Below, one piece after another: positions 9,930-56,345 of a DNA stretch of 64,000 nt. The DNA lies in the NCBI GenBank assembly GCA_038025085.1, contig CM076140.1, positions 39,617,501 to 39,681,500 on the forward strand. Reading direction: 5' to 3'. The notes beneath the pieces were generated by a model that had not been told where the DNA came from, searched no databases, and saw nothing but the letters and a program-made list of their open reading frames with translations. The position numbers were made by a program, and so were the translations under genes. This DNA is from Tetragonia tetragonoides (lineage: Eukaryota; Streptophyta; Magnoliopsida; Caryophyllales; Aizoaceae). The stretch's first letter is position 1, and every line of letters starts with the position of its first letter.

Positions 9930-10356
9930 ATGTTAAATTTTTGGAGAGCCCACTAAGGCACCAAATCCAAGTCAAAATCTGTCAAACCCACCCACGTGGG
10001 GCCCACGACCGGAAAAAAAATAATAAAAAAATTTAAAAAAAAAATTAGAGATTTGGTTTTACGAACTACATTGGCCTGATTCCGCATGGATATGTAGGTA
10101 ACCCACATAACTTGGGCCCCGGCCACTTCAATAAAATAAATCTCTAAGGGAGTTTTAATCCATTCGATTAATGCAAAAATAAGCAAGTCTTTCATTAATG
10201 TGGCTAAAGTCCATTACATGCTCTAATAAAAAAAAAGAAGAAGAAAGTGCGAGAAAGATAATAAATAAATAAAAGGGCAATTCTAAACTACATCTATTTG
10301 GGCATGCAAACCCGTTATTTGAATTATACTATTAAGCACAAAAAGAACAAGACTTG
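9930..10356. other. Spacer after Tat A pol
   Basis: This spacer lies between the pol stop and the tail of the antisense gene. It is AT-rich with A runs and contains the hairpin motif at 10063-10100. No other gene is visible. Confidence 0.6.
10063..10100 (+). promoter_or_regulatory. Post-pol hairpin motif, Tat A copy
   Basis: About 130 bp behind the pol stop, CTACAT (10066-10071) can pair with ATGTAG (10092-10097). Between them sit the conserved unpaired block GGCCTGAT and a small second stem, TCC/GGA. The same layout occurs about 100 bp behind the Tat B pol stop and at three further Tat B sites. Its function is unknown; RNA structure or paired ACGT-type protein sites are both possible. Confidence 0.6.
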
Positions 10357-11936
10357 CTAGACAACTAGAGGTGGACTACTCCTCCTTGTCCTTGCATTGA
10401 CTTCGAGCTCTTGGACGGGGTCGCTAGGCTCATCAAGTTCCATTCGTTCTTTTGGAGCACATCTTTCCCTACCATAGCTAGAAGAGGCCTCGTGATCATT
10501 GGGCCTAATTGGAGCTACTTGCTTGGCCGAGTGGGCCTGATTCTTCCTCTTCTTAGATTCGGCCTTTGCCTTACCTTTTCTCTTACCCTTAGTTTGGGGC
10601 TTGGAAGGTCTAGCGGGCCTATCAATGGGAGTTATCCTAATACCGTTTGGCTCATCATATTTGCGGGTTTTGAACAACTCATTTTCCTCTTCTAAGAGCT
10701 TTGGGTTAACTCAGTGATCGCCGCTCCAAATCCATTGCTCGTAAAAGATCGTCAGCCCATGAGATTCAGGAAATACTGGCTTAATCCATATTTGACGACG
10801 ACTCCAATATCGTTCCCAATGGGACACTAACTAAGGAGTCAAGGGTTGTTGACGAGGGCACACGCAGCTTACATTCAGGATTCTCTGCCGTAAACCATAT
10901 TGCCGCAAGAGACGATTCGGCAAAAAGGAAGTCAAGGTGCGTAAACCTACGATCCGGGTGATAGGCATATCTTCACTACATCCTACAATTTTGGTGGTAT
11001 GCCACCACGGAATAAACCAACCCATTTGGGTTTTGGGATAAACGAATTCCAACCATTCCTCACGGGAAGAAAGAGAAAAGCGCCGGCGTCGTGACGGAAG
11101 TTGCTTGGGAAGATACTTTCGGGTAGCTATGGAAGGCATTTCAAGAATATCAAGTCTCTCTTGAAGCCATATCTACACAAAAGCAACAAAAGAAAATTCA
11201 AGTCAGTACAAGATGAGAATTTCACCAAACAAAGTTAAATCCACAAAGATTAAGGCTTTATCACGAAACTTACTTGAAGGAGTAAAGGGCTCCCGGTGAA
11301 GGACTCTTGAGGATTGCTTTTGAACCTATCTAAAGCAAGGATTGTCTCTCCCACGACCAAGTGCATAGGAGAGCTATCCCGTTGAATTTGCTCGGTCACC
11401 CTAAGAAGGCAAGCTTTACCCCTATTAATGGTCATCTTCTTCTCGGAGGGAATAAGAACATCTTCGTTACCTCCAACGAACAAGTAACGATGGAGGAGGC
11501 AAAATACAAAGGCACGTTTCTTATACCTCATATCCATCGCATCCCGAGCCTTGGAGGTGAAGAAAGTCACAAGCTTGGCAAGATCAACATCCTCACCATG
11601 AAGCACTTGACCCACTTGACGGGGAGATAACCTGAGATACCTTTGAAAATCACCCACGAAAGCATTCCCCAAGTAAGGAACGGCGGGAGGACTTTCGGTT
11701 GGAAAGCCAATAATATCGAAGAACTCCTCCACCAAGGGGCACATCTCATGAGCACCAAAACGGACGACATGAAACTTAGGATCCCAGAACTCAATGGAAG
11801 CATGAAGAAAGTCCCACAAAATCTTAACTTGTTTGAGGTGAAAGAAGGCATTAAGATGGAAGGGAGTAAGCTCTAATCTCTCCTCTACTGTCATGGAAGC
11901 CAACCAAGCATCAAAGACATCATCAAAGTTCACCAT
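10357..11936 (-). pseudogene. Antisense DUF7745-like gene in Tat A
   Basis: This gene runs against the retrotransposon. The start ATG is at 11936. Exon 1 (11936-11274) ends at a GTAAGT donor (11273-11268). Exon 2 starts after a TGTGTAG acceptor at 11172, keeps the frame and ends at a GTAAGC donor (10872-10867). A likely exon 3 lies around 10830-10710 and a Lys-rich tail at 10677-10357. The product shows 'ASIEFWDPKFHVVRFG', 'EMCPLVEEFFDIIGFP' and 'LVVGETILALDRF', a pattern I associate with the plant DUF7745 family, whose function is unknown. A stop after exon 3 (near 10715) suggests decay, or an unmodelled intron. Exons 1 and 2 are intact. A homologous gene sits in the same place in Tat B. Confidence 0.7.
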
Positions 11937-12023
11937 TGTTAAGATTGAGGATTTTCTCTCAAGGAATTTTCTCTCTCTAAAGGCTCAAAGCAAGTGGTGA
12001 GAAGAAAAGAAAAAGAAACCCAA

Positions 12024-12243
12024 CTATATAGAGGCCACGGTTGGATTCTCGTCGAAAAATTAAGGAAATTCAGACAACCGATGAAAAGGGACCAGGCGGC
12101 CACGCAGCTAGTCCAGACGGCTAAGCCGCTAGGACAAGCGGCTAAGCCGCTTTGACAAACGCTTGACCGCTGGGACAAGCAGCAACCGCTAGAGCTCTAG
12201 CACAGCCGCTAGGAGCTCTAGCGGTCACCCTGTACAGGCGCCT
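12024..12243 (-). promoter_or_regulatory. Promoter-like module of the antisense DUF7745-like gene
   Basis: Upstream of the ATG at 11936 there is a TATA-like CTATATAG (12031-12024, minus strand). Before it lies a GC-rich cluster of short palindromes of the form AGCGGnnnnnCCGCT (about 12090-12235). Two landmark blocks, 12079-12111 and 12229-12243, match 17670-17700 and 17518-17532 of the Tat A LTR in the same relative order and orientation. The region is therefore homologous to the LTR promoter region. That it drives transcription is inference. Confidence 0.6.
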
Positions 12244-12299
12244 GGTGTGCTACTTCGCGAGATGCCTAGGTCCACCCGACCCCACCGTTTGACCGGGCT

Positions 12300-12740
12300 C
12301 TACTTTCCTAATTCCCACTTAGACAGATTTTGGAAGTCTTTTCTTATATTTTTCTTAGCTTAATTTTGGCTCTTGCCAATTTTCTATTTATTCCCTTTTT
12401 TATTTTCTTTCCTTCTTTTTATTTTGATTATCAAGTTCCATTTTTTTTTCCTTTTTTTTTCTGATTCTTTATTTCCTTTATTAATTTTTTTCCTTTTTTA
12501 ATTATCTTTTTCTATTTTTCTTTTCTTTCCTCTATTTTTATTTTTAGGGGAAGGGGTACCCCAAATGTGCTAAATTCTCGGAAATCCTAAATTCCCGAAT
12601 GTCGTGATTTGTGATTTCCCATTCGGAAATTAGTTGATTAAGTTCACATATGGGCATTTGCATGATATATTTTTGCGCGTAAATAAAATGCAATAATTTA
12701 TAGCAGGTTTAATACAAGCCCGAAAGTTCGAAATGCACTA
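12300..12740. other. Pyrimidine-rich spacer
   Basis: Long T- and C-rich stretch (about 12320-12545) between the two antisense genes, followed by ordinary AT-rich sequence. No coding potential or structured repeat seen. Confidence 0.5.
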
Positions 12741-15700
12741 CAACAAATATCACTGGCCATCTTCGCCAGTACTCGGACCCGCCTGAGGCGACTCTCCGGG
12801 TCCACTCGATGATGGAGCACCTGAAGGACCAGGCTGAGACATCGCCCAAGCTCTAGGGTCAAAAGCAAATAATGAACCCGTCAAGTAAGCGGGATCCAGT
12901 CAATGACGCTGTGGCTCCGACACGTCGTGATAGCCGCCATACCCCTTACTCTCCTGACTCCAAGAACCCCTTGGAGGGACTGGAGGATACATGGGTATAT
13001 GATAGCCCGGATACCCCATATAGGGAGGCGGTGCAGGCCACTGCGGAAGATAAGGCACTAGGGGCGGCTTCCCCATATCCACTCTAGCTCGAGGGGTCCC
13101 CTGACGCACCTCCGTACTCTCCCGCCTAGGAGGAGGACGATGCGATGTGGACACTGACTCCGGAGTACAAATAACTGGAGGCCTGGGAGGCCTCACCAAG
13201 GGAACAGGCTGCGAAATAAGCCCAAGGTCAAAAAATTACAAAAATTCAAATCAAGCACTATTACTTGAAATGAGCATACCTCTCGAACGTCGGAGCGACG
13301 ACTCGTGCATACACTCCGAGACGCGAACCTGGAAAACAAATTCTTAAAGGCTTGCATGCCTCTATAGATCTTTCGCGTCTCCGCAGCATCCAAATGTGCA
13401 CGTAAAATAAAAGAGTCAGTATAAATACAAAGAAAACATTGCAAGTTACAATGAATTCTCACTTACCCCCCTACAACCAGCTGGTAGAGGCAATCCCTCA
13501 ACCTCCTCATCGGGACCACGAAACTCAGGAATCAAGAGAACCTAAAGTGATCCATTCGCTCTTGTATTACTCACCGACATAGAAGGGAGAGTAGGGCGCT
13601 GAGAGGAAGCAGTCGCATGAGACGACGAAAAACTCGCAGCATTCTGCAAAGACCCAAAAAATATTAGACATATTTCTAAATTTCCAAACGAAATTAGGAA
13701 ACAAAGTACATTACTTACCGGGTCGGTAGAAAATTTGGGGCACAACCGAGCCTCAACAAAATCAGTATATGCCACCATAAGATCCACCTCAGGATCAGCC
13801 GGAAGCAAATCTCAAGGGCATTCGCCCCTACAACAGGCGCCCTTACCTGCTCCACGGTAAGGTGACGAACATAGAGCATGGAATCCGGAGGATCCAAAGG
13901 AATCCTCGGAGCCGGAAGGTCGGAGAAAGTCTGCCTAATCAGTGTCTCTCCCAAGAACCACCCAAAACTGAAAGGACCCTTAATAAGGATCCTCCTCTTG
14001 TCGTACTCCCGAGCACCCAAGAATCTGTCCGAGAGACCCGAAAGGTAATCCGTCCAAGGGAACCAGTCGACCTACAAAAGCAAAGATTGAGCATACAAAA
14101 GGGTAAAAGGACGATAAAAGCAGAAAGGTTAAGGATTTACATCCTGAGCGGTCAAGGGATATAATCGCCTTCCTAAGGACATGCAGCGTAGTAAATGGGC
14201 AAGATGCCCGTCCCTTCCAGTTCTGCATCGCTGGAAAGGACAAATCCCCTGTCTCGAGAAGAGGGGCAAGGTCGGAGAAATGCTCATAAAACCAAATCTA
14301 AGACATGCAAAGCACATGGGTTAGACACAAGTTATTAGTAAAAAGCCAAGAGCACAAAGTATAAGAAGGGTAAAAGGGAATTATCTCCATAACCTTCCAA
14401 TAACCGACTAAAGAGACGTGAGACACGCCCTCCTCTCCACTGAGGCGGTTGGACTACCTCAAACACCGTAGAAGACAAGAGTATGCAGGAAGACCCCAAA
14501 TGTACTCCGCAACTCTGTCCAAATCCCGCAAGCATGGGAAATAGCGAACGTGGTACCTACTAGCTTTATCCAAAAAGACGGAACAAGCTAGAACATAGGC
14601 CAAGAAAAGGCGAGCGTGCTGCTCCACCGTAACCATAACGTCAGTCCGGCCATACTCCCTACCATCCCAGTTGGCCCCAAAAAGGCCAAACATCTCCACT
14701 ATAACCTCCCTACTCACGTCTCCATAAGTGATAGGAGTACCGGTGCAAGGGAGCCCGGAAATGAGACCAAACTCGAAAGGGGTGATCATGATCTCACCCA
14801 TAGGAAAATGAAAAGTACTGGTAGTATCCCAGTACCGCTCCGCAAGACCTCTAACAAGCAAGCGGTCGGAGCGCTCTGCAGAAGTGAAATACGCTAAAAG
14901 TGACCGAAGCCACAACGCTCCACAATAGCGTCGACCGAAGGAGTCACGTACCTGCGGGCTTTCTCGATACCCAAAAGGCTACCATAACCCCGTATGGTAG
15001 TGTTGACATCCTATACAACACAATAATTGCAAGACAATTAGCTAGGTGATCCTAGTAACAACTACCAGTCTCCCGTTTAGTCCTAAATTTTTACAACTCG
15101 TAAAATTTAGCATTTTAGCTAAACCAATATGACAAGAGTGGATTTTGAAGAGAACGAATTTCACACAAGTTTATTCTCCACAAATATACTCGAAAAACCA
15201 TCAACCACCACAACAAAAATAAACTTCAATCAAGTTTATTTTCACAAATAAAAATATATGATAATTGCAACGAGAATAAATTTCATAAAATTTATTTTCC
15301 ACCATTAAAGATGAATTTCACGCAAATTCATTCTTCACATGTAAATATATATAATACAAGAAACCTACGGGAATTCACAAATTAGCAACAAAAACAATTT
15401 CACGCAAATTGATTTTTTCATATTTAGCTACACTACAGTTCTCAACCTAAAAGTTCTATGTTTGCCTACACATGATTTTCTAAGTGTAAGAGAGAAAAAA
15501 AAAATTAAAAAAAATAAAAAATAAAAATAAAAAAAAAAGAAGAAAAAAAAAGAAACCACGACATACCCGATATTTGGTACCAACGGTAACTAAATGCTTC
15601 TTCTTTTTGAAAACAAGATCGCTGGACTCCCAACGATCGTTAGGATGAAAATCACTACGAGTGAACTCATCCTGGACTAACAGGCTCTCACCCACCCAGT

Positions 15701-16262: not shown

Positions 16263-16488
16263 CACTCTCTCACCTCCGACATTTTTTGGGCCATTAGTTC
16301 AAAATCAGTGGGCCCCACACAAGGTCCATAGCAGTTATTTGCGAGCCAAAGTCCGTTTATGAAGGCAGGACTACTTTAAACCCACAGGTTTGTACAATTA
16401 AACTCGGCCAAATAGCATGGGCTCGCACCCGACCTCAGGTCTGAGCAACATTTTATTACCCTTTACCATAACATTTACTACTCACCTT

Positions 16489-17060
16489 ATTTCTAACGAA
16501 ATATTTTTATTGTGTAACCTACAGCACAGGGTTCCCATTCGACTTAAAATCGAAGGACATTTATTGTGTAACCTACAACACAGGGTTCCCCTTCGACGAA
16601 AAATCGAAGGACATTTATTGTGTAACCTACAGCACAGGGTTCCCCTTCGACTGAAAATCGAAAGATATTTATTGTGTGACCTACAGCATAGGGTCCCCTT
16701 CGACTGAAAATTGAAGGATTTTTATCTTTGATCTTATTTCTAACGAAATATTTTTATTGTGTAACCTACAGCACATGGTTCCCCTTCGACTGAAAATCGA
16801 AGTGACCTACAGCACAGGGTTCCCCTTCGACTGAAAATCGAAGGACATTTATTGTGTGACCTACAACACAGGGTTCCCCTTCGGCTGAAAATCGAAGGAC
16901 ATTTATTGTGTGACCTACAGCACAGGGTCTCTCCGTTCGACTGAAAATCGAAGGACATTTATTGTGTGACCTACAGCACAGGGTCTCTCTATTCGACTAA
17001 TAATCGAAGGATTTTTATTGTGTGACCTACAGCATAGGGTCAAACTCTCGGTCAAATAAA
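16489..17060 (+). repeat. ~54 bp tandem array in the Tat A 3' region
   Basis: About ten imperfect copies of a unit containing 'GTGTGACCTACAGCACAGGG' and a short palindrome TTCGACTgaaaATCGAA. The opening part (from 16489) recurs at about 16733, giving a higher-order duplication of about 244 bp. Arrays next to the polypurine tract are known from Tat elements and can seed satellite DNA. It ends about 130 bp before the polypurine tract. Confidence 0.9.
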
Positions 17061-22230: not shown

Positions 22231-22231
22231 G

Positions 22232-26208: not shown

Positions 26209-26637
26209 TGTGGAGTCAGATTCTCGGGTTTTCTGGATTAAGACTTGGGAATCGTCGCGTTACATGCCAAAGGGCATGTCCCATGGTAATCGAACGATTG
26301 AAAAGGGGTCAATTGGCAAGGAATCATCATAAGGTTCGAAGTCGCCACCTTGTTAAACTGTTGCACCCATGTTTGTGAAAAACTATGTTTTACTATGTTT
26401 GCTCGAGTTAAGATGATTTTGGTGTTGTCAACTGTTGTGGCATTTTTTATTTTTTATTTGAAGTTTTACGACATGAATGAACAACTACGAAGCTTGGTAC
26501 TTGGTAGCTTAGCAATACACCTTGCCCACATATAGCATCATTCAACTGTTGCAGCAGTTATCAAAAATTTCTAGTAGTCCTCAGTTGAATGCAAATTTGA
26601 CTAAGAGCTTCTTTTTTGGGTGGTTGTTGCCCATGAT

Positions 26638-26795
26638 GTGAAATTGGAGATTCTTGACATTTTGGGTGATCATGAAAGTAATTTACCATTGAGGAATGTG
26701 GGGGTGCCTTTATCTTTATAAAAGTTGAGCACCATACATAATTTAAAGCCTTTCATTGACAAAATTGAAGCAAAGCTGACAATTAAAAATCTAGA
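26638..26795 (+). pseudogene. L1-type LINE reverse transcriptase fragment
   Basis: The short stretch translates to a decayed version of the plant L1 block 'LPLRYLGVPL' followed by 'PLIDKI'; here 'LPLRNVGVPLSL', a stop, and 'KPFIDKIEAKL'. It is a remnant only. Confidence 0.6.
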
Positions 26796-26799
26796 ATAA

Positions 26800-27013
26800 A
26801 CCAAGGAGGTGTGGTTGAGACTTGAGTGGTATGGACTCATCCATTCTTAATCAAGGTCGAGGATTCCAATTTCGCCTTAGGTATGGAGCAGCTTCAAATT
26901 CCTTGGCCAGCTGTCCCGCCTTTTGAGGTACCTACAAGCGAGCGCGGGAAAATAGTCATTGTGGTCGACAGTGAATACCCTGATTGTGAATCCAAAAAAA
27001 AAAAAAAAAACTA
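26800..27013 (+). repeat. SINE-like unit with poly(A)
   Basis: A box-A-like 'GACTTGAGTGG' (about 26818) and a box-B-like 'GGTCGAGGATTCC' (about 26858) are spaced as in tRNA-derived SINEs. A 16-17 base A run ends the unit at 26996-27012. No clear target-site duplication was found, so the call is tentative. Confidence 0.45.
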
Positions 27014-27948
27014 ACATAATTTTCCAAGCACTCTATTTGTTATGATGAGTTGCAACATGAGGATATACCTTGCATTTGGTATGATTTTTCACTTGTTTCT
27101 CCTTTCATGAAAAATCATGAACATTTTAAGTTTTTGCTAAGACTATAAAACAGGGGTCAGGGTATAATAGCATCATTTGTGCAGAATACAAATACAAAAT
27201 TGAATGCTGCTGCATTGCTTGTTTTGATTAAAGGGATAGTTATAGTAATGAGGCTCTCTGAATTGAATTCTTGCGCACATAAATGGTGTATCAAATGCCA
27301 AAGAAAGATTAGCATTAAAGTAGTGTTTATGCTTCATTGAAGATACCAGTAACTAAGCAAAGCAATGGTATTAAAGGCTAATGGGCTCAACTTCATGATT
27401 GCGTGCTGCTGTGTCATTGTGTCTTTGGTTGCAAAAGAGACGGTTCTTCATCCTAGTCATACTCATTGTAACAAAAGTTTTGTGCATTGTGATTACAAAG
27501 CTGCGATTGTCATATGGAGCAAATATCTAGTTGTTTAAAAGGACTAGTATAGAATAATGAGAGCTCTTATCGAAAAACAAAAAAACTAAAAAAAAAAAAA
27601 CTAAAAGAGAGTTGTTTAATTGCTGGACTATGCAAGTATCTCCAATGTTAGAGATTAAACAGGTTTATATGGTTGTCAAATCATCCCTTTTAAAACCTCA
27701 CTTCTACAAATATGTATTTCTCTATCCTAATAACTCTTTAAGATAATTGAAGTCTATACAACATGAAAATCCAAAATTCAGGTTTACCTATCCAAATCGA
27801 TTTGTGTGACATTAAGCTTTAATTTTTAGCTTAATCACCATGCAGAAGATATTTTTAACTTAATCACTAGGTGGATGCTCGTGTGTTGCACGGACTGTGA
27901 TTATATAATAAAATTAATATAACGTGATTATCAATCTCATCGAAAAAT

Positions 27949-28096
<148 letters not shown>

Positions 28097-29353
28097 CCCA
28101 TTTAATATCATGAATCCCATATAATAAGATTACTAACACTTCAGAGGGGTTTTTTTTTATATAAATTAAACTCTTATCACCAATTTCAATTAATTTTTAA
28201 TTAACTCACTCATATGTTACATGATCCAAGAGGTTGTAGTTTCAAAGTCTTTTATACTTGATGTTGGTACGCCAATACTCCTATGTTGATATAAGTGTAC
28301 AACTAACTTTTTGAAAGTACGATCCTTGTTCTATGCTATAATCAGGTTAAATGTGTAATGTATATATAACTACTTTTCAAAAAATAGAGAAGTTTAAGAC
28401 TTAAACCTTAGAATAGCAAAACAAATTTTAATGCTTGCTTGACTGTTTTTTCAAACTGGTATACATTAATAATTATAGAGTTGAATTGAACATAAATTGG
28501 AACCCTAATTAACATGGGGGATCAGTCTATTACATAGAGTTATAAAAGTATAAGTTATAATGGTGAAGTTTCCTATTAAAGATTAGATCTAGAATCAATT
28601 TAGATTCATTATTTATTTCTTTATTCTACCCATACTCTTTTTATTATATTATACCACAGATTCTTGCCTAATCTCATGATTAGAAAGGACCCTAATCTCA
28701 TCATGGGATGACATTAAGTGTGCAAGTGGGGGAGGGAGAAGGAGAGAGAGTGGTGAGGAAGGAGAGAGGAAGGAAGAGGAAGGAGAGAAAGAGTAGGGAG
28801 ATTCCAGCTCTTGAGATTATGATTTAACCATTGATATTATACTTTGAGATTGCTTTTTATATTTTCTCTCTTTTTTATATTGCAACTCTTTAGTTATGTC
28901 AAACTAATTACCTTTTTTTATGAGAAAAATAATTACTTTTTTAGGTGGACGCATCATATGTTGTAAAAAATCATCCATCTTTTATGTACTCATACTTTAT
29001 TTTTTTAATCAGTGAATAAGGGTTCGAAGACGCCACCTTGTTATGACCCAAACAAGGACGGGTTCCAAAAGAAAAGGGTTTTATAAAAGATTTAAAATAA
29101 AATCATTTAAGAAACCCAAAATTGACTCCATTGCGATAAGGCACGAAAATTCTTGTGACTGGCCTTCGAATGCAAAGATTTGGGTTCGGGGTCTAGGTTA
29201 GAAGGTGCGTACGTCATTCGGACCCGTCTCCTCCTCTGTGTAGAGTACGGGCTCTTTACTAATACGTCAAATCCCATTAAAAGCTTCGAATTTGGTTACA
29301 TTATGCCTAAAAATGAAAACACATAAGTTCATATTGTCACACAACATGTTTGC

Positions 29354-29967
29354 TGGGCCTGCTCTTTTGGTTGGTTGAAATTTAATTTGGATGGTTCATC
29401 CCTTGGAAAACCTGGGCCTGCTGGTTGTGGTGGGATTTTAAGAGGCTGTACAGAGGAAATTTGCGTTGTCGTCTCCGTTAAGCTTGAGGATATGGATTCT
29501 AATGCTGCAGAACTTCATGCATTTAGTTATGCAGTTGATTTACTAATGAAACATCCAAATTGGCTGCATTTTCGAATAGTCTTTGAAAGTGATTCTTGTA
29601 ATGCTATTAATTGGGTGCCGAAGAAAGAGGATAGACCGTGGAATCGGTGGCGTATATTCAACAAATTGGACACTCAGTTATATCAGTTAGATGGTGTACA
29701 AATACAACATGTTACTAGAGAAAAGAATAGTGAAGCTGATAGGTTAGCTAAACAAGCGGTGTATATAGGGAGGATAACATGTTAATATGGATTTGATTCT
29801 ACCATGTATAAATTGGGGGTTATTCTTTTGTATAGTCAGAAACCTGAGTAGAGATAGTCTGAATGTGATAGGTAGGATCTTACCGGGCCTAAAAACCTTT
29901 GTATGATTACTTTGTGGCAATTAGTTGCCTAATAAAATGATTATTTTGCTGTTCAAAAAAAAAAAAC
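29354..29967 (+). mobile_element. 5'-truncated L1-type LINE in the Tat B LTR
   Basis: The insert is absent from the matching LTR at about 61130. It is flanked by 13 bp duplications ACAACATGTTTGC (29341-29353) and ATAACATGTTTGC (29969-29981), one mismatch. It ends in a 12-base A run preceded by an AATAAAA signal. It carries only the LINE's terminal RNase H and 3' UTR. This is classic target-primed integration with 5' truncation. Confidence 0.9.
29375..29785 (+). pseudogene. LINE RNase H domain (RVT_3 type)
   Basis: The frame encodes an RNase H with 'FNLDGSSLGKPGPAGCGGILR', 'NAAELHAFSYAVDLL', 'FESDSCNAI' and 'EKNSEADRLAKQAV', so the D-E-D-D acidic residues are all present and the frame is open to TAA. 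It is the C-terminal end of a plant LINE ORF2. The upstream RT and endonuclease are missing because of 5' truncation, and no promoter is visible. It is a fragment, not a host gene. Confidence 0.85.
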
Positions 29968-39560: not shown

Positions 39561-39593
39561 AATATACCGTCTTTTGACCGAATCCTTGCGGAT

Positions 39594-39635
39594 TGCCTAC
39601 GTATCTCGCATTGAGAATCAGGTTGAGCGTAGCTC
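39594..39635 (-). promoter_or_regulatory. Post-pol hairpin motif, Tat B copy 1
   Basis: On the minus strand CTACGC (39632-39627) faces ACGTAG (39602-39597), giving five pairs. They enclose the conserved CCTGAT block and a second stem TCTC/GAGA with loop AATGC. It lies about 100 bp behind the pol stop at 39734, the same position as in Tat A. Confidence 0.6.
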
Positions 39636-39733: not shown

Positions 39734-39884
39734 TTAAGCATAAAACTTCTTCAGCTGATCCAAGTTCGTGAAACTGGAAAATTCAATCCTGTCGAGGTCA
39801 GCTAACTTGACTGCTCCGGCAGGGGTGAGCTCCTTAACATAGAACTGGCCTGACCAATTAGGACGAAATTTGCCCCTAGGATCA
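39734..39884 (-). pseudogene. Tat B pol: integrase C-terminal tail
   Basis: Open minus-strand frame with 'DPRGKFRPNWSGQFYVKEL', 'AGAVKLADLD' and 'NLDQLKKFYA' plus stop TAA (39736-39734). It is the direct counterpart of the end of Tat A pol. It is separated from the rest of the integrase (47066 onward) by the copia insertion, and roughly 150 residues between the two parts are missing altogether. Confidence 0.88.
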
Positions 39885-40492
39885 TGTTGGATTTGCCCTA
39901 TGAACTAATCATAATAAGAATTAATAATTGCATTATTGGTTGGACTATGAAAACCGGTCTTTACTTAATATGGGTAATCGTAATGTTTTGCTAGAAACAA
40001 ATTACGGTTTGTGTGCCCGAAAAGAGTTTTGGACTTACTGCCACATTAAGTAAACCAACATGGTCGCACACTTAACAGGGTCATTTTACTAGAAGGGTCT
40101 AATTCGGATTAGGCCCATCACACACTTAACCTAATAAGCCCTCCTGCCTCCCTATATATATCGTGACTCCTGATCAGTTAGGGTTACACGTGATAATAAG
40201 TTTTCACGAAACCCTAACTGTGTGTCATTAGAGTAAGGAGAGAACGGAGGTTGTGAACGGGATCGCTGTACTAGTATACTGACGTGTGGATTCGAGCCTG
40301 TGTGTGGATACCAGTTGAGGCACGACATCTGACGTGTTAATCCATACCCAATTACTGTTCATCCAACCAGCGACCAAAGGAGTGAGGTAGGATTTCGATT
40401 TGATATTTAATTACAGTAATCACATATTTTTATGGGTTAATCGAATTTCTATTATGCATGTGTGATCATGTTAGTAGTTAGAAATTCCTTCA
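39885..40492 (+). repeat. Copia 5' LTR
   Basis: Starts TGTTGGATTTGCCC, ends CTTCA just before the PBS. 608 bp. It contains CTATATATA near 40153, a likely TATA box. Confidence 0.9.
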
Positions 40493-40493
40493 G

Positions 40494-40506
40494 TGGTATC
40501 AGAGCT
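40494..40506 (+). other. Copia primer binding site
   Basis: TGGTATCAGAGC is the usual complement of the 3' end of plant initiator tRNA-Met. It lies one base behind the LTR. Confidence 0.93.
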
Positions 40507-41783
40507 GCTTGTGTTTTACTGTCTTTGAATATATGATATATGGTAGATATATGAGTAAGTTCGAAATCATGATATGTGTATAATAGATGTGTATGTGTGA
40601 TTCGTTTTCTGTTTATCCAATAATCGGATCTGAGCATGTTAGTATTTATCAATCTATGAAAGCATGTCTGTATGAATAGTTCATATGTTAAAATTCGTAT
40701 GTTACAAATACCATGTTGTTTGAATACAAGTCGTTGTAATTTGTATGTTACCCTTCGAACCCCGCTCGCTGTCCGGCCAGCAAGACTGTCGCCAGGGGCA
40801 CTGCGCCTTGCACCCCGCGAGGGGCGCTGCCCCCTTGACCCCTGCATGGATCCGCGTGTTTGTGCGAATGATGTTTTATTTTTGTGCCATTACGAATCTT
40901 TGATGTTTGATGTTTGATATATGATATCTTAGTTCACATTATGTTGAATGGTATGGTATGGTGAATAGTATGACCCATAATTTTACTTTGGTTTAATATA
41001 CGGCATGCGTGTCGTTTATTTGAATGTAATTATTAAATACGACATGCATGTCGTTACTTTGAATATAATAATTAGATTATTGCTAGTGTAGTAGTATAAC
41101 TTTTATGATATAGTTAATTGTAAGATCAAGTTCATGAAGGTCAAAGGATATCACGCAGATGATCATCCAGCTGCTATATGGAAGAAGGAAAGTGTGGAGA
41201 TTAGATCATCATAGCTTAGGGGGCCATACTATATCACATGTGTTGTTATTTATGCTTCCGCTTATTTACTGTTGATTATATTTATTGTTATGTTTGCATG
41301 AAACTAAACTCCATATAATCAATCATATCCCTCAGTAATATTAAGTTAACTTGATGCCTTTCCAATCTAATACACCTATTAGGACTTGGTTCATTAAAAT
41401 GTGTCTGCAAAAGTAGAGTATCCTTAATTACTCAAGTCTGTTAGAATGAGTAACAGTTACCCATATGTATAAATTGGTTTACTTAATAAGGCTATCAAAA
41501 CAGTTTTGGCCCTTAAGGCATAGAGTTGGGAGCCGGGACATATGATGTCATCCCAACAACCAGGAGTTGTATAGGATACAATTAGTAAAGGGTTACTTAC
41601 CTAAATAACTAAGTGTAAAGTGATAAGCCAAATATTACTTGATACTTAGGAAATATGGATCTTGGCTCCACTATATTTTATAGGGCTATTTGTCACATTA
41701 ATATAATGGATTTATTTTGTTAAATTGTTAACAAAATATTTATGAAATAAGTCACTAAAATCTTTGTACATTTGTTGTAGATA
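40507..41783 (+). other. Copia leader (PBS to gag)
   Basis: 1.28 kb untranslated stretch. It includes a sharply GC-rich block at 40750-40850 that can fold back (GGGGC... with ...GCCCC). No open frame of note. Confidence 0.7.
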
Positions 41784-42680
41784 ATGTCAAACCCTACATC
41801 ATCACACTCATTTTCACTGCGATCCGTCCTTGAGAAGGACAAATTGAATGGAACCAATTCCTTGGACTGGTATCGAAACTTGAGAATTGTTCTTAAACAA
41901 GAGAAAAAGGAATATGTCCTTGAGAAACCAGTCCCCAAGAAGGCTCATGCTACCAATGCTCCTCATGCTGAGAGGAATGCTTATCAGAAGCTCAAAGATG
42001 ATTCAATTGATGTCAGTTGTCTCATGCTGGCCACCATGAATTCTGAGCTTCAGAAGCGATATGAAACTATGGAGGCTTATGAGATGATTGAGAGCCTGAA
42101 AGGAATGTTTCAGGAGCAAGCACGAACTGAGAGGTATAACACTGTGTCTGACTTGGTTAAGTGCAAGATGGGGAAAGGAAGTTCAGTTAGTCCTCATGTA
42201 ATCAAGATGATTGGTTAAGTTGAGTACTTGGAAAAACTGGGCTCCCCAATGGGTCAAGAGTTGGCTACTGATATCATCTTAGTGTCATTGACTAATGATT
42301 ATGACACTTTTGTTATGAACTATAATATGCATAATCTTAACAAGTCATTGGCTGAGCTGCATGGGATGCTTAAAACTGCTGAGAAAAACGTCAAGAAGGA
42401 CCCAACTCCAAATGTTCTAATGGTTAGAAAGGGGGCACAGTTTAAGAAACATGGTCAAACTAAGGATAAGGGAAAGGCTAACATGAAGGGTCCGATTGTG
42501 AATCAACCCAAAGGAAAGCCTAAGTTCAAACCCTCGTCTGTTCCTAATGATGAAGCCAAGTGCTTCTACTGCAATGAGCTTGGGCATTGGAAGAGGAATT
42601 GCAAGAAATATTTGGAGGATCTAAAGAAGAATAAGGGAAGTGTTCCTTTAACTTCAGGTAAATGTTATGTTACAGAAGTA
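41784..42680 (+). pseudogene. Copia gag
   Basis: The ATG at 41784 opens the copia gag, with N-terminal 'LEKDKLNGTNSLDWYRNLRIV' (UBN2-type gag domain). It ends with the zinc knuckle 'CFYCNELGHWKRNC' near 42562-42603. A TAA at 42216 interrupts the frame once ('MIG-stop-VEYLEKLG'). The layout otherwise matches full-length plant copia gags. Confidence 0.9.
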
Positions 42681-42968
42681 AATGTATTTACTTCTTCAAA
42701 TTCTACTTCTTGGGTATTAGCTGCCGGATGTGGTACTCACATTTCTTCAAATGTGCAGGGACTAAAGAAAAGTAGGACTTTGGCAAAAGGTGATGTGGAC
42801 TTGCACGTTGGAAATGGACCAAGAGTTGCTGCGTTATCTGTAGGAACATTTTATTTAAGTTTGCCATCTGGATTGGCTTTAGAACTCAATATTGTTATTA
42901 TGTACCTGCCATTAGCAGGAATATTATTTCTGTTTCACTCTTGTACTTGGAAGATTTTGTCTTTGTGA
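42681..42968 (+). pseudogene. Copia protease
   Basis: The region after gag carries the copia protease start 'SWVLAAGCGTHISS'. The family has the catalytic D-T/S-G where this copy has A-A-G, so the active-site aspartate is lost. The frame closes at 42966. Confidence 0.78.
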
Positions 42969-44342
42969 TTAAGAACAAATGTTGTTCCTTTTATAAAGAT
43001 GATATGTTTTATGGTAGCGGTCCAATGAAAAATGGCTTTTATGTTCTAGGCCTTAAAATTCCAGTTTATAACATAACTACAAAGAGGCTGAAATCAAATG
43101 ACTCTAACCCAACTTACCTTTAGTATTGTCGTCTTGGACATATAATCGAGAAGCGTGTTCAAAACCTCCATAATGATGGACTTTTAAACTCATTTGACTT
43201 TGAGTCATTTGAGACATGTGAGTCTTGTTTATTAGGGAAGATGACTAAAGCACCGTTCACTGGTCATATTGAAAGAGCAAGTGATTTATTAGGCCTCATA
43301 CATACTGATGTATGCGGACCATTAAGCACAGTTTCTAGAGGAGGTTACCATTACTTCATTACCTTTACAGATGACTTCAGCAAGTATGGTTATGTCTACT
43401 TAATGAGGCATAAATCTGAATCCTTTGAAAAGTTCAAGGAGTTTCAGAATGAAGTACAAAATCAACTTGGAAAAAAGATTAAAGCCCTTCGATAGATCGA
43501 GGTGGTGAGTATCTAAGCCAAGAGTTCGATAGTCATTTGAAAGATTGTGGAATTGTTTCACAACTCACCCTCCAGGTACACCACAATGGAATGGTGTATC
43601 GGAGAGGAGAAATCGAACTTTGTTAGACATGGTTTGATCAATGATGAGCCTTACTAGTCTTCCAATATCTTTTTGGGGATATGCTCTTGAAACAGCAGCG
43701 TTCACACTTAACAGGAGTCCATCAAAATCAGTAGAAAGGACACCGTATGAGAAATGGACGGGAAAAGTTCCCAGCTTGACTTTTCTAAAGATTTGGGGTT
43801 GTGAAGCTTATGTAAAACGTTTACTCTCTGATAAGCTTGGACCTAAATCTGATAAATGCTTCTTTGTGGGATATCCTAAAGAAACTAATGGATATTACTT
43901 TTACCATCCCACCGACAACAAAGTGTTTGTGGCTCGACACAGTATCTTCTTAGAAAGAGAGTTTCTTTCTAAAGGAACCAATGGGAGTAAAGTGCAACTC
44001 GAACAGATTCGAGAGCCACAGGAGAGTACTTCAATTTCTGAGGAGGCTCAAAGTAGTTTACAAGATGTTGTAGTAGCTGCACCTGTGGCACCATCCCCTC
44101 GTAGGTCTGAAAGAGTGCGCCGAGAACCCATTAGATATGGTTTCTTGGTGACTGAACATCGTCATATATTATTAATAGAGCATGATGAGCCTACGACCTA
44201 CAAGGAAGCAATGATGGGCCCAGATTTCGACAAATGGCTTCAAGCCATGAAATCTGAAATGGATTCCATGTATGAAAACAAAGTATGGACTTTGGTAGAC
44301 CCACCTGATGGCATAAAAACCATTGAGTGTAAATGGGTTTTC
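42969..44342 (+). pseudogene. Copia integrase
   Basis: Frames in sequence give the H2C2 block ('CRLGHI' ... 'CESCLLGKMTK', 43126-43255), first catalytic Asp in 'IHTDVCGPL', second in 'DRGGEYL' (frame broken near 43491) and Glu in 'NGVSERRNRTLLD'. The C-terminal 'LNRSPSKSVERTPYEKWTGKVP' and a 'GCEAYVKR' block follow. Stops at about 43121, 43491 and 43635 interrupt it. Confidence 0.88.
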
Positions 44343-45216
44343 AAGAAGAAAAATTGACATGCATGGGAATGTTTATATATTCAAGGCACGGTTGGTGGCA
44401 GAAGGTTATAATCAAATTCATGGGATAAATTATGATGAAACCTTTTCGCCCGTCGCAATGCTTAAATCCATTAGGACATTCCTTGCCATTGCTGCATATT
44501 ATGACTATGAGATATTGCAAATGGATGTGAAGATAACTTTCCTTAATGGAAACCTAGAAGAGGATGTGTACATGACACAACCAGAGGGCTTCCCATCACC
44601 AGGAGGAAAGGTATGCAAGTTTCAACGATCTATTTATGGATTGAAGTAGGCATCCAGGAGTTGGAATCTTCGCTTCAATGAGGCAATCAAAGAGTTTGAC
44701 TTCCTTAGATGCGAAGAGAAACCTTGTGTTTACAAGAAGGTTAGTGGGAGCGCTGTGGTATTCTTGGTCTTATATGTGGACGACATATTACTGATTGGAA
44801 ATGATATTCCTACATTTCAGTCAATCAAGGCCTTTTTGGGAAAGTGTTTCTCAATGAAAGACATGGGAGAGGCAACCTATATCTTGGGGATTAGGATCTA
44901 TAGAGATAGATCAAAAAGACTCTTGGGCTTAAGCCAGAGTAGCTATATAGATAAGGTGTTGAAAAGGTTCAACATGCAAGATTTCAAAAAGGGTAATCTT
45001 CCCATGTCACATGGCATAACTCTTAGCAAGACTCAGTGCTCTTCGACACAAGATGAGCGAGATCGCATGAGTAGAATTCCTTATGCTTCTGCTACAGGGT
45101 CTATCATGTATGCCATGATGTGTACTCGTCCTAACGTTGCTTGTGCTTTGAGCATGACGAGTAGATACCAATCTAATCCAGCTGGGTCGCAGTCAAGAGC
45201 ATCCTCAAATACTTAA
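44160..45216 (+). pseudogene. Copia reverse transcriptase
   Basis: Pieces read 'EAMMGPDFDKWLQAMKSEM', 'WVFKKK', 'KARLVAEGYNQIHGINYDETF', 'MDVKITFLNG', 'YGLK' and the catalytic 'LYVDDILLIGND' (near 44773). A frameshift lies near 44350, a TAG at 44647 (normally Gln of 'GLKQASRSW'), and the frame breaks at about 45190. Confidence 0.9.
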
Positions 45217-45757
45217 GAAGGACTAAGGATGTATTTCTTGTCTATGTGGTGAAGAGGAACTCACTGTAAGTGGTTACACTGATGCAAGCTTCCAAACGGA
45301 TAAGGATGATTTCCGATCGCAGTCAGGATTTGTATTCATTCTGAATAGAGGAGCAGTTTGTTGAAAGAGTTCCAAACAAAATACAATTGTTGATTCTACG
45401 ACAAAAGCCGAGTATATTGCTGCTTCTGAAGAAGCAAAAGAAGCAGTGTGAATTCGAAAGTTCATCATTGAACTTCGGGTGATACCTAATAGTTCGAATC
45501 CAATAGACCTTTATTGTGACAGTAATGGGGCTATTGCACTAGCGAAGGAGCCTAGGGATCATCAGAAAACTAGGCATATACTCAGACGTTACCATTTGAT
45601 ACGAAGTTTTGTACAAATGGGAGATGTCAAGGTGTGCAGAGTATCATCGGAGATGAACATTGATGATCTGCTGACTAAGCCTCTACCACAGGATAAGCAT
45701 GAGCGTCATACTATTACACAAGGACTTAGATTCATGAATGATTGGTCTCTTCCCTAG
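45190..45757 (+). pseudogene. Copia RNase H
   Basis: After a frameshift the terminal domain continues: 'GYTDASFQTDKDD' region, 'KAEYIAASEEAKEA', 'YCDSNGAIALAKEPRDHQKTRHI' and 'NIDDLLTKPLPQ'. TAG at 45755-45757 ends pol. A TGA near 45450 breaks the frame once more. Confidence 0.87.
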
Positions 45758-46494
45758 TGGGAGGTTTACCTTGTGACTTATATTCGATTTATTTATTACT
45801 GTCCCAATGAATAATTTATATGATGTAGATCAACAAGTATGTGACTTGATTGTGAGACTCTATTGTTATAAATATAATTATTCTAAAATTGTCCGTAGTC
45901 AGTTATCATTATTTGTAGGAATTTGATAACTATTGAGACTATCATGTGGATTGATTGATGACCAAGTTTCACAGGTCATAATTATGAGATATGAAATTGA
46001 TCACATGAATAAATGTTAGAGAACATTGTATTGGACCGGCTCGTTTCAAAACATTGAAAGGATTGTTATATAAGTGTCATCAATGTTTTCATATGCAACT
46101 TTTAATTTGATCCTTTGACCTGAACTCACCATGGTTTCCTACATGATGTTTAGCATATCTTGATATTGCCAAACGTTAATCCTTAATCGGATGACTATAA
46201 AGATAATTGAATGATGTGTTGTAAGTCATGCGGAGGAATGTGAGTGAGCAAGATGGGATTTGTCACTTTCATATAACGGGAGTAAGATATCTGTGGGCCC
46301 CTCGACGAGTTTAAACTGTGAAATGCATGGCCGTGCTCAAATGGATTGAAAGTCAATCGTTTGTTTTTAAACAGTTTAACTGCGAAATCGAGAAAGTCAT
46401 AATTGAACTATATAGGGATGACAATACTCCTTCCTTATGGTCAATTTAGGTATCACATGACAAAGGGATCATCGGTGTATGATTAGCTATAGTG

Positions 46495-46506
46495 CAAGTG
46501 GGAGAT
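46495..46506 (+). other. Copia polypurine tract
   Basis: AAGTGGGAGAT directly before the 3' LTR start TGTTGG at 46507. Confidence 0.8.
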
Positions 46507-47052
46507 TGTTGGATTTGCCCTATGAACTAATCATAATAAGAATTAATAATTGCATTATTGGTTGGACTATGAAAACTGATCTTTACTTCATATGGGTAAT
46601 CGTAATGTTTTGCTAGAAACCAATTACGGTTTGTGGGTCCGAAAAGAGTTTTGGACTTACTGCCACATTAAGTAAACCAGCAGGATCGTACACTTAACAG
46701 GCTCATTTTATTAGAAGGGTCTAATTCGGATTAGGCTCATCACACACTTAACCTAATCAGCCCTCCTACTTCCCTATATATATCGTGACTCCTGATCAGT
46801 TAGGGTTACACGTGATAATCAGTTTTCACGAAACCCTAACTGTGTGTCATTAGAGTAAGGAGAGAACGGAGGTTGTGAACGGGATCGGTGTACTAGTATA
46901 CTGACGTGTGGATTCGAGCCTGTATGTGGATACCAGTTGAGGCACGACATCTGACGTGTTAATCCATACCCAACAACTGTTCATCCAACCAGCGACCAAA
47001 GGAGTGAGGTAGGATTTTGATTTGATATTTAATTACAGTAATCACATGTTTT
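46507..47052 (+). repeat. Copia 3' LTR, 3' truncated
   Basis: Matches the 5' LTR from its first base to about 47052, then stops. The last ~65 bp, including the normal terminal CA, are missing. Confidence 0.9.
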
Positions 47053-48542: not shown

Positions 48543-49984
48543 CTAATTCAGACATTGAATGTCGAATTCTGACAAAAGTGCCTGCCACCGAGCAATCCTT
48601 TCACTCATGATTGGCTTATTGAAGAGATACTTAATAGGATCCAATCTCGAGACAAGATATGTAGTGTGAGCTTCGAGGTAATGCTTTAACTTTCTCGTGG
48701 CGTAAACTAGAGATATGCAGGTCTTCTCGAGCGGGCTATAGCGGACTTCATATTCAAGTGATTTCTTACTCAAATAATAGATAGCAACCTCTTTCCTCGT
48801 TCCTTCTTCATGAGCCAAGAATGCTCCCATAGCTGTCTCTGTCACCGTGAGGTACAAAATCAAAGGCTTTCCAGATTGCGGGGGCATTAATATTGGAGGA
48901 TTCGAAAGGTAACTTTTCAATTTATCGCACGCTTTTTGACATTCATCATTCCAATGATGAGACGTGCCTTTCCTGAGCAGCTTGAAAATTGGCTCACATT
49001 TCGTTGTAAGCTGAGAAATGAACCTACTGATGTACTGAATTCTCCCAAGAAATCCTTGAATCTCTTTTTTAGACTTTGGGGCTAGCAACTATGATATTGC
49101 TTTTACCTTGTCGGAATTGACTTCAATGCCCCTCTGACTTACCACGAAGCCTAAGAGCTTACCCGAAGTTACTCCGAATACACACTTCTGAGGGTTGAGC
49201 CTAAGATTGAATTACCGGATGCGATTGAAGAACAATTTTAATGAGGAAAAATGATCTCCTCGATCACGGCTCTTGACTATCATATCGTCCACATAAACCT
49301 CGAGATTGTCATGGCTCAAGTCGTGGAGGATGGTAGTTGCAGCTCTCTGATATGTGGCACCTGCGTTCTTTAACCCGAAAGGCATAACTTTCTAGCAATA
49401 CGTCCCCCAAGGAGTAATGAAGGACGTCTTGATCTGATCCTCTTTCGCCATATGGATTTGGTTATAACCCGAAAACCCATCCATGAATGAGAACATAGCA
49501 TGTCTTGCTGTATTATAGACCAACATGTCGATGTGTGGCAAAGGGAAGCAATCTTTCGGTGAAGCAGCATTCAAATCACTAAAGTCGATGCACATTCGCA
49601 CCCTTCCGTCTTTTTTGGGGAATACCATGATGTTGGCAAGCCAATGGGGTGTTTCACAGCTTGTAGAAAACCAGTGGTTATCTGTTTTTGAACCTCTTCT
49701 TTAACCTTGAGACTAATCTCTGGTTTCATGCGTCGGAGCTTCTTTTGCTTAGGCTTGCAGTCTGGCACTAAAGGAAGACGATGCTCGGCAATGTTGCGGT
49801 CAACCCCAGGCATATCAGCATAGGACCAGGCAAATACATCCACATATTCTCTCAACAATGCGGTAAGCGACTCTCGCTCTTCTGGGGACAATGATGACCC
49901 TATCTTGACTTCCCTTTTACTTTCTTCGGTGCCAATATTTATTATTATTGACTCTTCAATTGGTGATATGCATGTTTGTGGCAA
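48543..49984 (-). pseudogene. Tat B pol: reverse transcriptase and Ty3-type RNase H
   Basis: From 49984 downward: 'LREYVDVFAWSYADMPGV', 'KLRRMKPE', 'DGRVRMCIDFSDLN', 'FMDGFSGYNQIHM', the catalytic 'YVDDM' (near 49290), 'KEIQGFLGRIQYISRFI', then RNase H with 'LYLTVTETAMGAFLA' and 'YYLSKKS'. Frames change near 49625 and 49085, and stops occur near 49390 and 49210. The order and spacing match Tat A. Confidence 0.9.
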
Positions 49985-50212
49985 TTCATTATCATATGAT
50001 GATTCATCATGCTCAAAATCAAGTTCTTGTGCACATATATGCTCGGAGACACATGTAGGGTTGAGAATTTCAAGGTCGGATAGGTCGTCTGAAGAGGGAT
50101 ATTCTGTGGTGAAGGTAGTAGATCCTTCGGATTCAGAATTAGTGGTGGTAGGGCCCGACAGATGGTTAGGAGGGGAATTTGAGTTTGGGTCAGTGCTCGA
50201 GTCAGGGAATGA

Positions 50213-51534: not shown

Positions 51535-51537
<3 letters not shown>

Positions 51538-52396: not shown

Positions 52397-52430
52397 ACCT
52401 ATTAGCTCAAATGGTAGATTATTCATGGTG
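52397..52430 (+). repeat. 5' half of a degenerate tRNA-like sequence
   Basis: 'CCTATTAGCTCAAATGGTAGA' matches the acceptor and D-arm part of the tRNA-like sequence at 53077. The 3' half is not recognisable. Confidence 0.55.
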
Positions 52431-53076: not shown

Positions 53077-53147
53077 AGCCTATTAGCTCAATTGGTAGAG
53101 CAATGTGCAAATGCACAAGAATGTAGGTTCGAATCCTACATAGGCTA
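53077..53147 (+). tRNA. tRNA-like sequence (pseudo-tRNA), plus copy
   Basis: Acceptor stem AGCCTAT pairs perfectly with ATAGGCT. The D-arm GCTC-AATTGGTA-GAGC and T-arm GTAGG-TTCGAAT-CCTAC are perfect. The anticodon arm is abnormal: TGTGC/GCACA with a four-base AAAT loop, two bases short overall and without T33. Promoter boxes A and B are present. It cannot decode as drawn, so no anticodon is assigned. It is either a decayed tRNA or a selected tRNA mimic. Confidence 0.6.
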
Positions 53148-53440: not shown

Positions 53441-53466
53441 AGCCTATGTAGAATTCGAACCTGCAT
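53441..53466 (-). repeat. 3' half of a tRNA-like sequence
   Basis: Minus-strand T-arm and 3' acceptor strand (GGTTCGAAT...ACATAGGCT) like those at 53077 and 53977, without the 5' half. Confidence 0.55.
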
Positions 53467-53975: not shown

Positions 53976-54048
53976 TAGCCTATGTAGGAATCGAACCTAC
54001 ATCCTCATGCGCAATTGCACGGTGCTCTACCAATTGAGCTAATAGGCT
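53976..54048 (-). tRNA. tRNA-like sequence (pseudo-tRNA), minus copy
   Basis: Minus-strand sequence of 73 nt, canonical tRNA length. Acceptor AGCCTAT/ATAGGCT, D-arm GCTC/GAGC and T-arm GTAGG/CCTAC (loop TTCGATT) are all perfect. The canonical anticodon stem (positions 27-31/39-43) does not pair; a register-shifted stem CGTGC/GCATG with a six-base AATTGC loop does. Position 33 is A instead of T. It lies in inverted orientation to the copy at 53077, symmetric about the centre of the TIR element. Confidence 0.6.
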
Positions 54049-55660: not shown

Positions 55661-55905
55661 TTGCGGGTAATTCATTAATTGCACGGGATTATTCTAAGCC
55701 GTCGGATCCGCAAAATTGAACGCTCACGATCCCTTCTCACCTTCTCAATAGTAGCATGCCTTCTCACCAGATCCAGCATGTGCATGGCACATGACCTCAC
55801 TAATGAATGGATCAAATTAAGCCATCCATTTATTTTTGATCTAATGGCCACAAAGTGCTCTCATGGTAAAACTGATCTCATGTTGAACCCGACCCTTATA
55901 TATAG
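55660..55905 (-). repeat. Right terminal inverted repeat, partly duplicated
   Basis: The inner part (55660-55768) matches the left TIR in reverse complement. The outer part (55769-55905) again shows a TATATATA end and a '...GTTCA..TGAGAT' segment similar to the left tip, so the end seems duplicated or extended. Confidence 0.55.
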
Positions 55906-55951
55906 TTCCATTTTTTGGATTTCATCTTCTTTGTTGAAGCGCACCCGAAGG

Positions 55952-56045
55952 CTGCCTACGTATCTCCAATGCGTATGAGCAAACATTTTCGAAAATAATG
56001 GATATTTTTAAAATGTACATTGGAGAATCAGGTCCACGTAGTTCT
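55952..56045 (-). promoter_or_regulatory. Hairpin motif, Tat B copy 2
   Basis: Minus strand: CTACGT (56041-56036) pairs with ACGTAG (55961-55956). Inside are the conserved CCTGAT block and a second perfect 9 bp stem TCTCCAATG/CATTGGAGA, enclosing a ~40 nt loop. Same layout as the copies at 10063 and 39594. Confidence 0.65.
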
Positions 56046-56104
56046 GGATAAAAGCTGATTTTTTATTTTTTTACTTTATTGTTTTTAGCCGAGCTCGGAA
56101 AGAG

Positions 56105-56188
56105 CTGCCTACGTACCCTGGTGCATGTGAGTACAAGTGTGTCTAGATGTTGTCAAATCCTACGGGGATCAGGTCATACGTAGTTCTA
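56105..56188 (-). promoter_or_regulatory. Hairpin motif, Tat B copy 3
   Basis: Minus strand: CTACGTA (56183-56177) pairs with TACGTAG (56115-56109), seven pairs. They enclose the CCTGAT block and a short CCC/GGG second stem. Confidence 0.6.
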
Positions 56189-56239
56189 CTACAAAGTGCT
56201 TAAGGAAAAGATTTACTTCCTATGGTCGAACTCAAATGA

Positions 56240-56345
56240 GATGCCTACGTACCCCAAGTGCTTGAGCTTACATGTGTATCTATTCTGGATCATCAAAAGT
56301 GCACTTTTAAGTCTTGTTGGGGATCAGACCATGACGTAGTTCTCG
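56240..56345 (-). promoter_or_regulatory. Hairpin motif, Tat B copy 4
   Basis: Minus strand: CTACGT (56339-56334) pairs with ACGTAG (56250-56245). They enclose TCTGAT in the conserved position and a 6 bp CCCCAA/TTGGGG second stem. Copies 2-4 stand in tandem about 140 bp apart. Confidence 0.65.

Follow-up and report, generated by a model that had tools for sequence, protein, structure and literature searches.

The 64,000-nucleotide stretch of Tetragonia tetragonoides DNA analyzed here (assembly GCA_038025085.1, contig CM076140.1, forward-strand positions 39,617,501 to 39,681,500; hereafter the window, with coordinates counted from its first letter) holds two retrotransposons of apparent Tat lineage, Tat A and Tat B, in which a short motif recurs five times, raising the question of what this motif is and what it does for its hosts. 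An initial annotation had read it as a single hairpin with an unpaired block, proposing selected RNA structure or, alternatively, paired protein sites in the DNA. Our analysis indicates that it is very likely a discrete cis-acting RNA domain of the genomic RNA of Tat-lineage Ty3/gypsy elements, built from three helices (P1, P2, and P3) and a pseudoknot.

Architecture and Edges of the Domain

The domain comprises 60-120 nt and sits in non-coding stretches of both elements. From 5′ to 3′, its first half consists of GAA, the 5′ arm of P1, 0-2 nt, the 5′ arm of the pseudoknot, TGAT, and the variable hairpin P2; its second half consists of a T, the 3′ arm of P1, a G, the variable hairpin P3, usually a C, and the 3′ arm of the pseudoknot. 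GCAA or TTCG loops cap several P2 and P3 hairpins, the P2 loop is without conservation, and the linker ahead of the pseudoknot 3′ arm usually has one to three letters. Reading of the sequence located all five previously proposed copies at the places given and bore out their common plan of an outer stem (five-paired in the post-pol copy of Tat B, as described), a (C/T)CTGAT block, an inner stem, a loop, and one T before the second outer arm. The stems of the single hairpin are retained, but the fold is a pseudoknot with an extra hairpin, and the block held to be unpaired is half paired. Overlooked 3′ of the copies were a second variable hairpin (e.g. AATCC-GCAA-GGATT) and, following it, a short block pairing with the letters that precede TGAT. 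The five inner stems exist as listed, but to call them "completely different" goes too far, as TCTC/GAGA is the start of TCTCCAATG/CATTGGAGA. The window copies and their parts are as follows.

10063-10125, plus strand: Tat A copy, whole unit, GAA at 10063-10065, TGAT at 10077-10080 (sequence read, covariance-model match)
10066-10071/10092-10097, 10081-10083/10088-10090, and 10102-10105/10113-10116, plus strand: P1 (CTACAT/ATGTAG), P2, and P3 of the Tat A copy
10072-10076/10121-10125, plus strand: pseudoknot of the Tat A copy, TGGCC/GGCCA, 5/5 pairs
39575-39635, minus strand: Tat B post-pol copy, TGAT at 39617-39620 (sequence read, covariance-model match)
39628-39632/39597-39601 and 39613-39616/39604-39607, minus strand: P1 (five pairs) and P2 of the post-pol copy
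39590-39594/39581-39585, minus strand: P3 of the post-pol copy, GCAA loop
39621-39625/39575-39579, minus strand: pseudoknot of the post-pol copy, CAACC/GGTCA, 3/5 pairs
56223-56342, minus strand: Tat B tandem copy M1, TGAT at 56323-56326, P1 at 56334-56339/56245-56250, P2 at 56317-56322/56252-56257
56327-56331/56223-56227, minus strand: pseudoknot of M1, TGGTC/GACCA, 5/5 pairs
56086-56186, minus strand: Tat B tandem copy M2, TGAT at 56168-56171, P1 at 56178-56183/56109-56114, P3 at 56102-56106/56092-56096
56172-56176/56086-56090, minus strand: pseudoknot of M2, TGACC/GGCTA, 4/5 pairs, one of them G-U
55936-56044, minus strand: Tat B tandem copy M3, TGAT at 56027-56030, P1 at 56036-56041/55956-55961, P2 at 56018-56026/55963-55971
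56031-56035/55936-55940, minus strand: pseudoknot of M3, GGACC/GCTTC, 4/5 pairs, one of them G-U

The pseudoknot partners change jointly between families, with TGGCC/GGCCA in Tat A, TGACC/GGTCA in the L040 type, TGGTC/GACCA in M1, TGGCC/GGCTA in M2, and GGACC/GGTCC in the M3 copies of loci L073 and L088. Across the edges of 14 representatives (91 pairs), identity is 0.28-0.32 until 4 nt before P1 and then 0.905 in GAA, with full identity (1.0) for TGAT, for the TA that leads into the second P1 arm, and for the G that follows this arm; within the pseudoknot 3′ arm it falls to 0.70, over the following five letters to 0.356, and farther out to about 0.3. The conserved unit starts at GAA and stops at the pseudoknot end, with sharp edges; the covariance model itself had no pseudoknot pairs. 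When shifts were allowed, the upstream flanks had an identity of 0.501 versus 0.445 after shuffling and are thus not wholly random.

Of the 22 copies used to build this covariance model, two came from the window. The model retrieved all five window copies ahead of noise (with filters off, E 5e-16, 8e-16, 1e-7, 7e-4, and 0.08; the next window matches, E 3.2 and 4.6, are noise). M1 was weak with filters off (E 0.08), yet scored 45.1 bits with default filters, under which the lowest score among the five was 32.5 bits. A regular expression for the outer stem plus CTGAT, which omits the copy at 39594 with its five-pair outer stem, matched four times in the window and not once in any of 200 first-order Markov sequences.

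Covariation of the Paired Positions

The large alignment combines the window with 93 of the 102 plant loci. Among those omitted, seven repeat loci already used (L063, L064, and L066-L070), L019 has its second hairpin and pseudoknot partner deleted, and L091 has one pseudoknot mismatch. The model-fitted alignment has 122 distinct rows and favors P1, P2, and P3 over the pseudoknot; two M3 rows (L058 and L065) are misaligned in the second and third alignments, where they count against the pseudoknot. The 22 model rows, the 30 sources of the default-filter search, and the 14 edge representatives are sets of our own choosing. Fragment L073:3376-3414 was removed before the coarse-cluster permutation, the model-free ranking, and the tree-aware and random-helix tests, and for the last three rows at least 93% identical were also removed, which kept 75 of the 122.

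In the 122 rows, 86.3% of the cells assigned to pairs are paired, compared with 79.0% in column shuffles (0/500 as high) and 36-38% when partners are slid by one column. An excess of covariation over column shuffles was also found in smaller sets; the numbers of pair types and of double-change pairs in the 122 rows were not above those of shuffles. The tree-aware null has columns evolving independently on a tree inferred from the motif columns themselves. Against it, covariation in the 75 rows gave P = 0.0025 (the floor, 0/400) for the whole structure, P2, and P3, with 0.017 for the pseudoknot and 0.047 for P1; the corresponding P values for paired cells were 0.0025 (whole), 0.017 (P2), 0.030 (P3), 0.005 (pseudoknot), and 0.022 (P1). 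Under the same null, slid structures gave P above 0.1, and 0/150 random five-pair helices passed. Permutation over 16 hand-made families yielded counts of 4 (pseudoknot), 1 (P2), 0 (P3), and 281 (P1) of 5000. The counts over nine coarse clusters, 63 rows being lumped by single linkage, were 169 (pseudoknot), 32 (pseudoknot core), 22 (P2), 163 (P3), and 1146 (P1) of 10000. P2 and P3 covary, as, more weakly, does the pseudoknot, and the pairing is under constraint, in the sense orientation. The proposal of selected RNA structure is supported by covariation above both column shuffles and the tree-aware null, with slid partners and all 150 random helices failing.

Several observations weigh against the structural reading. 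A model-free ranking, which is dominated by clade signal, puts 6 of its 20 best pairs inside the structure and 14 outside it, and the highest-ranked pseudoknot pair comes 51st of 2038. Unguided RNAalifold recovers P2 and P3 but replaces P1 with a CCTG/TAGG helix. The wobble test for the strand gave no G-U excess (61 G-U cells versus 57 A-C cells), and z fell below -2 in just one of seven single-sequence folds. Complete five-pair pseudoknots are present in just two of the five window copies (Tat A and M1), the imperfect ones in single old window copies being due to decay. Finally, the evidence comes from one genome only.

Genome-Wide Abundance and the Outer Stem

Searches of this plant genome (752.8 Mb, including the window), whose pattern counts may be lower bounds, gave 735 exact matches to the CTACGT form (control 1). 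With four bases between CTACGT and CTGAT there were 400 (178+222; reversed-pattern control 1, 1+0), and with five to nine bases 335 (166+169; control 0, 0+0). The CTACAT form had 559 exact matches (271+288) and its control 8 (4+4). Among 100 listed of these 559 copies, counted by eye, the 3′ partner was TATGTAGG in 93, TACGTAGG in 6, and TATATAGG in 1, and in 93 the ACGT core is missing from both P1 arms. The single-side change, CTACGT with TATGTAGG, had 50 matches (control 0). The double change CTACAT/ATGTAG is the state of the amplified Tat A family, in accord with the initial annotation's view of a compensated change. CpG decay of one dead copy as the source of the Tat A stem was rejected, because CTACAT/ATGTAG is family-wide.

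An inner stem beginning with a purine gave 10 matches (control 2), six of which resemble mutated members of known families. Viral contigs contained 2 and 2 pattern matches, all four without the rest of the motif and the first two in phage-like contigs; GTDB contigs contained 0 and 0. Similar letters may also occur in other plant repeats.

Host Elements and Placement of the Copies

Pfam matches are RT_RNaseH and rve (RNase H and integrase) in Tat A and RVT_3 (the second RNase H) and gag in Tat B; at the related locus L065, tblastn gave the order reverse transcriptase (RT), RNase H, second RNase H, integrase. RT frames were identified by eye, and the single RT frame submitted (49574-50212) had no Pfam match. 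The order RT-RNase H-second RNase H-integrase in one pol, as read from the sequence, would place the host elements in the Tat lineage of Ty3/gypsy. The frames that precede the domain in the window are as follows.

9102-9929, plus strand: Tat A integrase frame, end of pol (Pfam rve), stop at 9927-9929, 136 nt before P1 of the copy
39734-39736, minus strand: Tat B pol stop codon (sequence read), 101 nt before P1 of the post-pol copy
56478-56600, minus strand: end of a gag-like frame with a zinc knuckle (CDYCQKFAHMTDNC), stop TAG at 56478-56480, 138 nt before P1 of M1

The earlier figure of 100-130 bp behind the pol stop is thus about right. Tat B has one copy past pol and three in tandem past the gag-like zinc-knuckle frame; their position behind gag had been noted, but the gag-like stop ahead of the set had not. 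The repeats 26227-31142 and 60660-62341 are probably the long terminal repeats (LTRs) of Tat B. When the pol-stop position was checked more widely, the start of the stop codon lay 64-139 nt ahead of P1 in five of the seven post-pol loci; at the remaining two, the frame is broken (L006) or no pol precedes the copy (L063). For M1, a stop starts 105-141 nt before P1 in 4/5 loci, with a frame demonstrably gag-like only in the window and L063.

Locus L063, a Tat B relative without detectable pol, has five domain copies. At two of eight ten-kb loci, pol precedes the domain; the other six carry gag and the domain, and the interval between these contains no pol match at E 1e-5. L067 is a complete element, flanked by 95% identical 1.2-kb repeats. 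L066 shows an RNase H match at the locus edge, upstream of gag, and L068 a weak RT match on the opposite strand. The domain lies on the same strand as gag or pol in 8/8 of these loci.

The window and its relatives show further features. In elements without detectable pol, copies four and five lie about 1 kb apart past M3 (L063:3701-3770 and 4881-4950, minus strand; L059:252-322, minus strand). Past the protease, Tat B seems to carry another gag-like domain that has a zinc knuckle of its own (56478-58051, minus strand), giving gag-protease-gag, and the same order is seen at L063:6793-7308 (minus strand; weak gag match past the protease, E 7e-19). Two tRNA matches above the Rfam gathering score (53077-53147, plus strand; 53976-54048, minus strand) stand 0.8 kb apart between gag and RT of Tat B. 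A 95% identical direct repeat (39885-40184 and 46507-46806) flanks copia-like frames; the whole interval, 39885-46806, probably represents a copia element that lies within the end of pol in Tat B. There is a perfect inverted repeat at 27951-28095 (72-nt arms, spacer 0). Past Tat A pol, antisense frames match PMD (14457-14978, minus strand, above cut-off) and DUF7745 (11253-11984, minus strand, below cut-off, 22.2 of 26), both of which would belong inside Tat A. A tandem array of roughly 54-nt repeats (16460-17041), of a kind described for Retand 3′ regions, follows the antisense open reading frames (ORFs) adjoining Tat A.

Relation to Known RNA Elements

Rfam 15 held no relevant family for the whole window (gathering threshold), for 10040-10160 (E up to 10), or for three loci (E up to 2), and searches of open-licence papers, covering listings and some passages, gave no description of the domain. 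Papers containing TACGTAGGCA or GATACGTAGG concern maize actin primers and other apparently unrelated subjects, and those containing both ACTACGT and TACGTAGG are unrelated by title, among the matches listed. The 3′ non-coding region of Retand/Tat elements is alike in lineage, in its location between pol and the 3′ LTR, and in its antisense ORFs and tandem repeats; the words hairpin, stem, and secondary structure are absent from the main text of the 2025 Retand survey (PMC11963269).

The Rous sarcoma virus (RSV) stability element (RSE) also belongs to a long unspliced RNA of a retroelement, in which it follows the gag stop, with more such elements suggested past pol and src (PMC2925335). It differs in being pyrimidine-rich and PTBP1-binding with a minimal length of 155 nt (PMC6277124); the Tat domain is a 60-120 nt pseudoknot module and, in gag-only families, lies about 1 kb past gag. 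The MusD transport element (MTE), also an RNA element of an LTR retrotransposon, needs a pseudoknot (PMC5767303 and PMC12786077), but has another architecture with a kissing loop and an animal host. The triple-helix elements for nuclear expression (ENEs) of plant transposons need U-rich internal loops that bind poly(A), and the copies read here have no such strand pair. The domain adds a new structural family to the cis-acting RNAs known from retroelements.

Possible Roles of the Domain

Because the domain is kept in elements with gag but without detectable pol, it probably acts in cis on genomic RNA. It would work as RNA on the element's own transcript, a protein reading the constant letters GAA, TGAT, T, and G as presented by the fold. 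By analogy with the RSV element past gag, it may shield the long RNA past the gag and pol stops from decay, a mechanism that, taken together with the structure, we favor tentatively and with less than even confidence. The stops shortly before P1 at five of seven post-pol loci and the tandem set after a gag-like stop in the window and L063 fit such protection, as do the RSV stability elements behind gag and perhaps also behind pol and src. Against it, the gag stop lies 0.94-1.04 kb ahead of the domain in four gag-only families and M4 copies have no consistent preceding frame, which weakens the stop-codon idea; neither group obeys a rule that the domain always stands about 100 nt past a stop. 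Moreover, a plant RNA was protected by an unstructured stretch past the stop, and a stable hairpin there abolished protection (PMC6277124). A role of the post-pol copies in downstream-ORF translation is unlikely, since the frames recognized behind them are antisense.

The same RNA domain might instead be a packaging or dimerization signal read by Gag, marking genomic RNA for particles, which we consider unlikely, if not strongly so. Its retention in elements with gag but without detectable pol and the several copies per Tat B element would suit such a signal, but the copies sit past gag and past pol, unlike known packaging and dimerization signals, which lie mostly near the RNA 5′ end, and the potentially kissing ACGT palindrome is lost in Tat A. 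A point in favor of packaging is that the Ty1 pseudoknot lies close to the dimer interface and primer site (PMC5767303). An element for nuclear export of unspliced RNA, analogous to the constitutive transport element (CTE) or the MTE, appears slightly less likely; both are close rivals of RNA protection. The MTE of mouse requires a pseudoknot and a kissing loop (PMC5767303 and PMC12786077), Ogre relatives have introns (PMC12786077), Tat copies lie between pol and the 3′ LTR, and a structured RNA with a pseudoknot is present in the genomic RNA, within the statistical limits given above. The likeness drawn to the MusD element lies in the pseudoknot rather than in sequence or exact fold, however, and there is no plant precedent: according to a 2025 review, direct studies of how LTR-retrotransposon RNA is exported in plants are lacking (PMC12786077).

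The remaining explanations are far less probable. Both CTACGT and TACGTAGG are perfect or near palindromes, and most families conserve them strongly, as would fit paired TACGTA/ACGT-core protein sites in the DNA; this alternative from the initial annotation is nevertheless disfavored, and very improbable, because the Tat A family lost the core in both arms with pairing kept, P2, P3, and the pseudoknot change jointly, and GAA and TGAT are conserved outside the palindromes. Equally improbable is a splice acceptor, with CTGAT as branch point, GTAG as acceptor, and the P2 hairpin shortening the distance between them: TGAT and AG are near invariant and the tandem copies occupy the gag-RT interval, in which the Ogre intron is located, but P3, the pseudoknot arm past AG, and the post-pol copies are left unexplained, and AG would fall within P1. 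Least probable is a self-cleaving ribozyme, suggested by analogy with the hepatitis delta virus (HDV) ribozyme, which has the same helix order (P1, 5′ pseudoknot arm, P2, second P1 arm, P3, 3′ pseudoknot arm). Unlike HDV-like ribozymes, the Tat domain has no Rfam match, no long linker before the last pairing arm, and no conserved P2 loop.

Significance for Tat Elements

Tat elements make up a large share of many plant genomes, and a compact, delimited RNA domain with a pseudoknot is a handle on how their RNAs are kept, exported, or packaged. It is conceivable, though somewhat doubtful, that a previously undescribed pseudoknot domain shared by Tat elements, which carry as many as five copies of it and retain it even where pol is lacking, is read by a host or Gag protein to protect, export, or package these RNAs and represents the first such transport or insulator element of plant LTR retrotransposons. 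The domain would explain why short non-coding stretches survive between families whose flanking non-coding sequence no longer aligns, and would serve as a marker for gag-only relatives. That the fold, its shape kept while its letters change, turns up hundreds of times among related copies in this genome suggests a signal in the RNA on which these retrotransposons depend.

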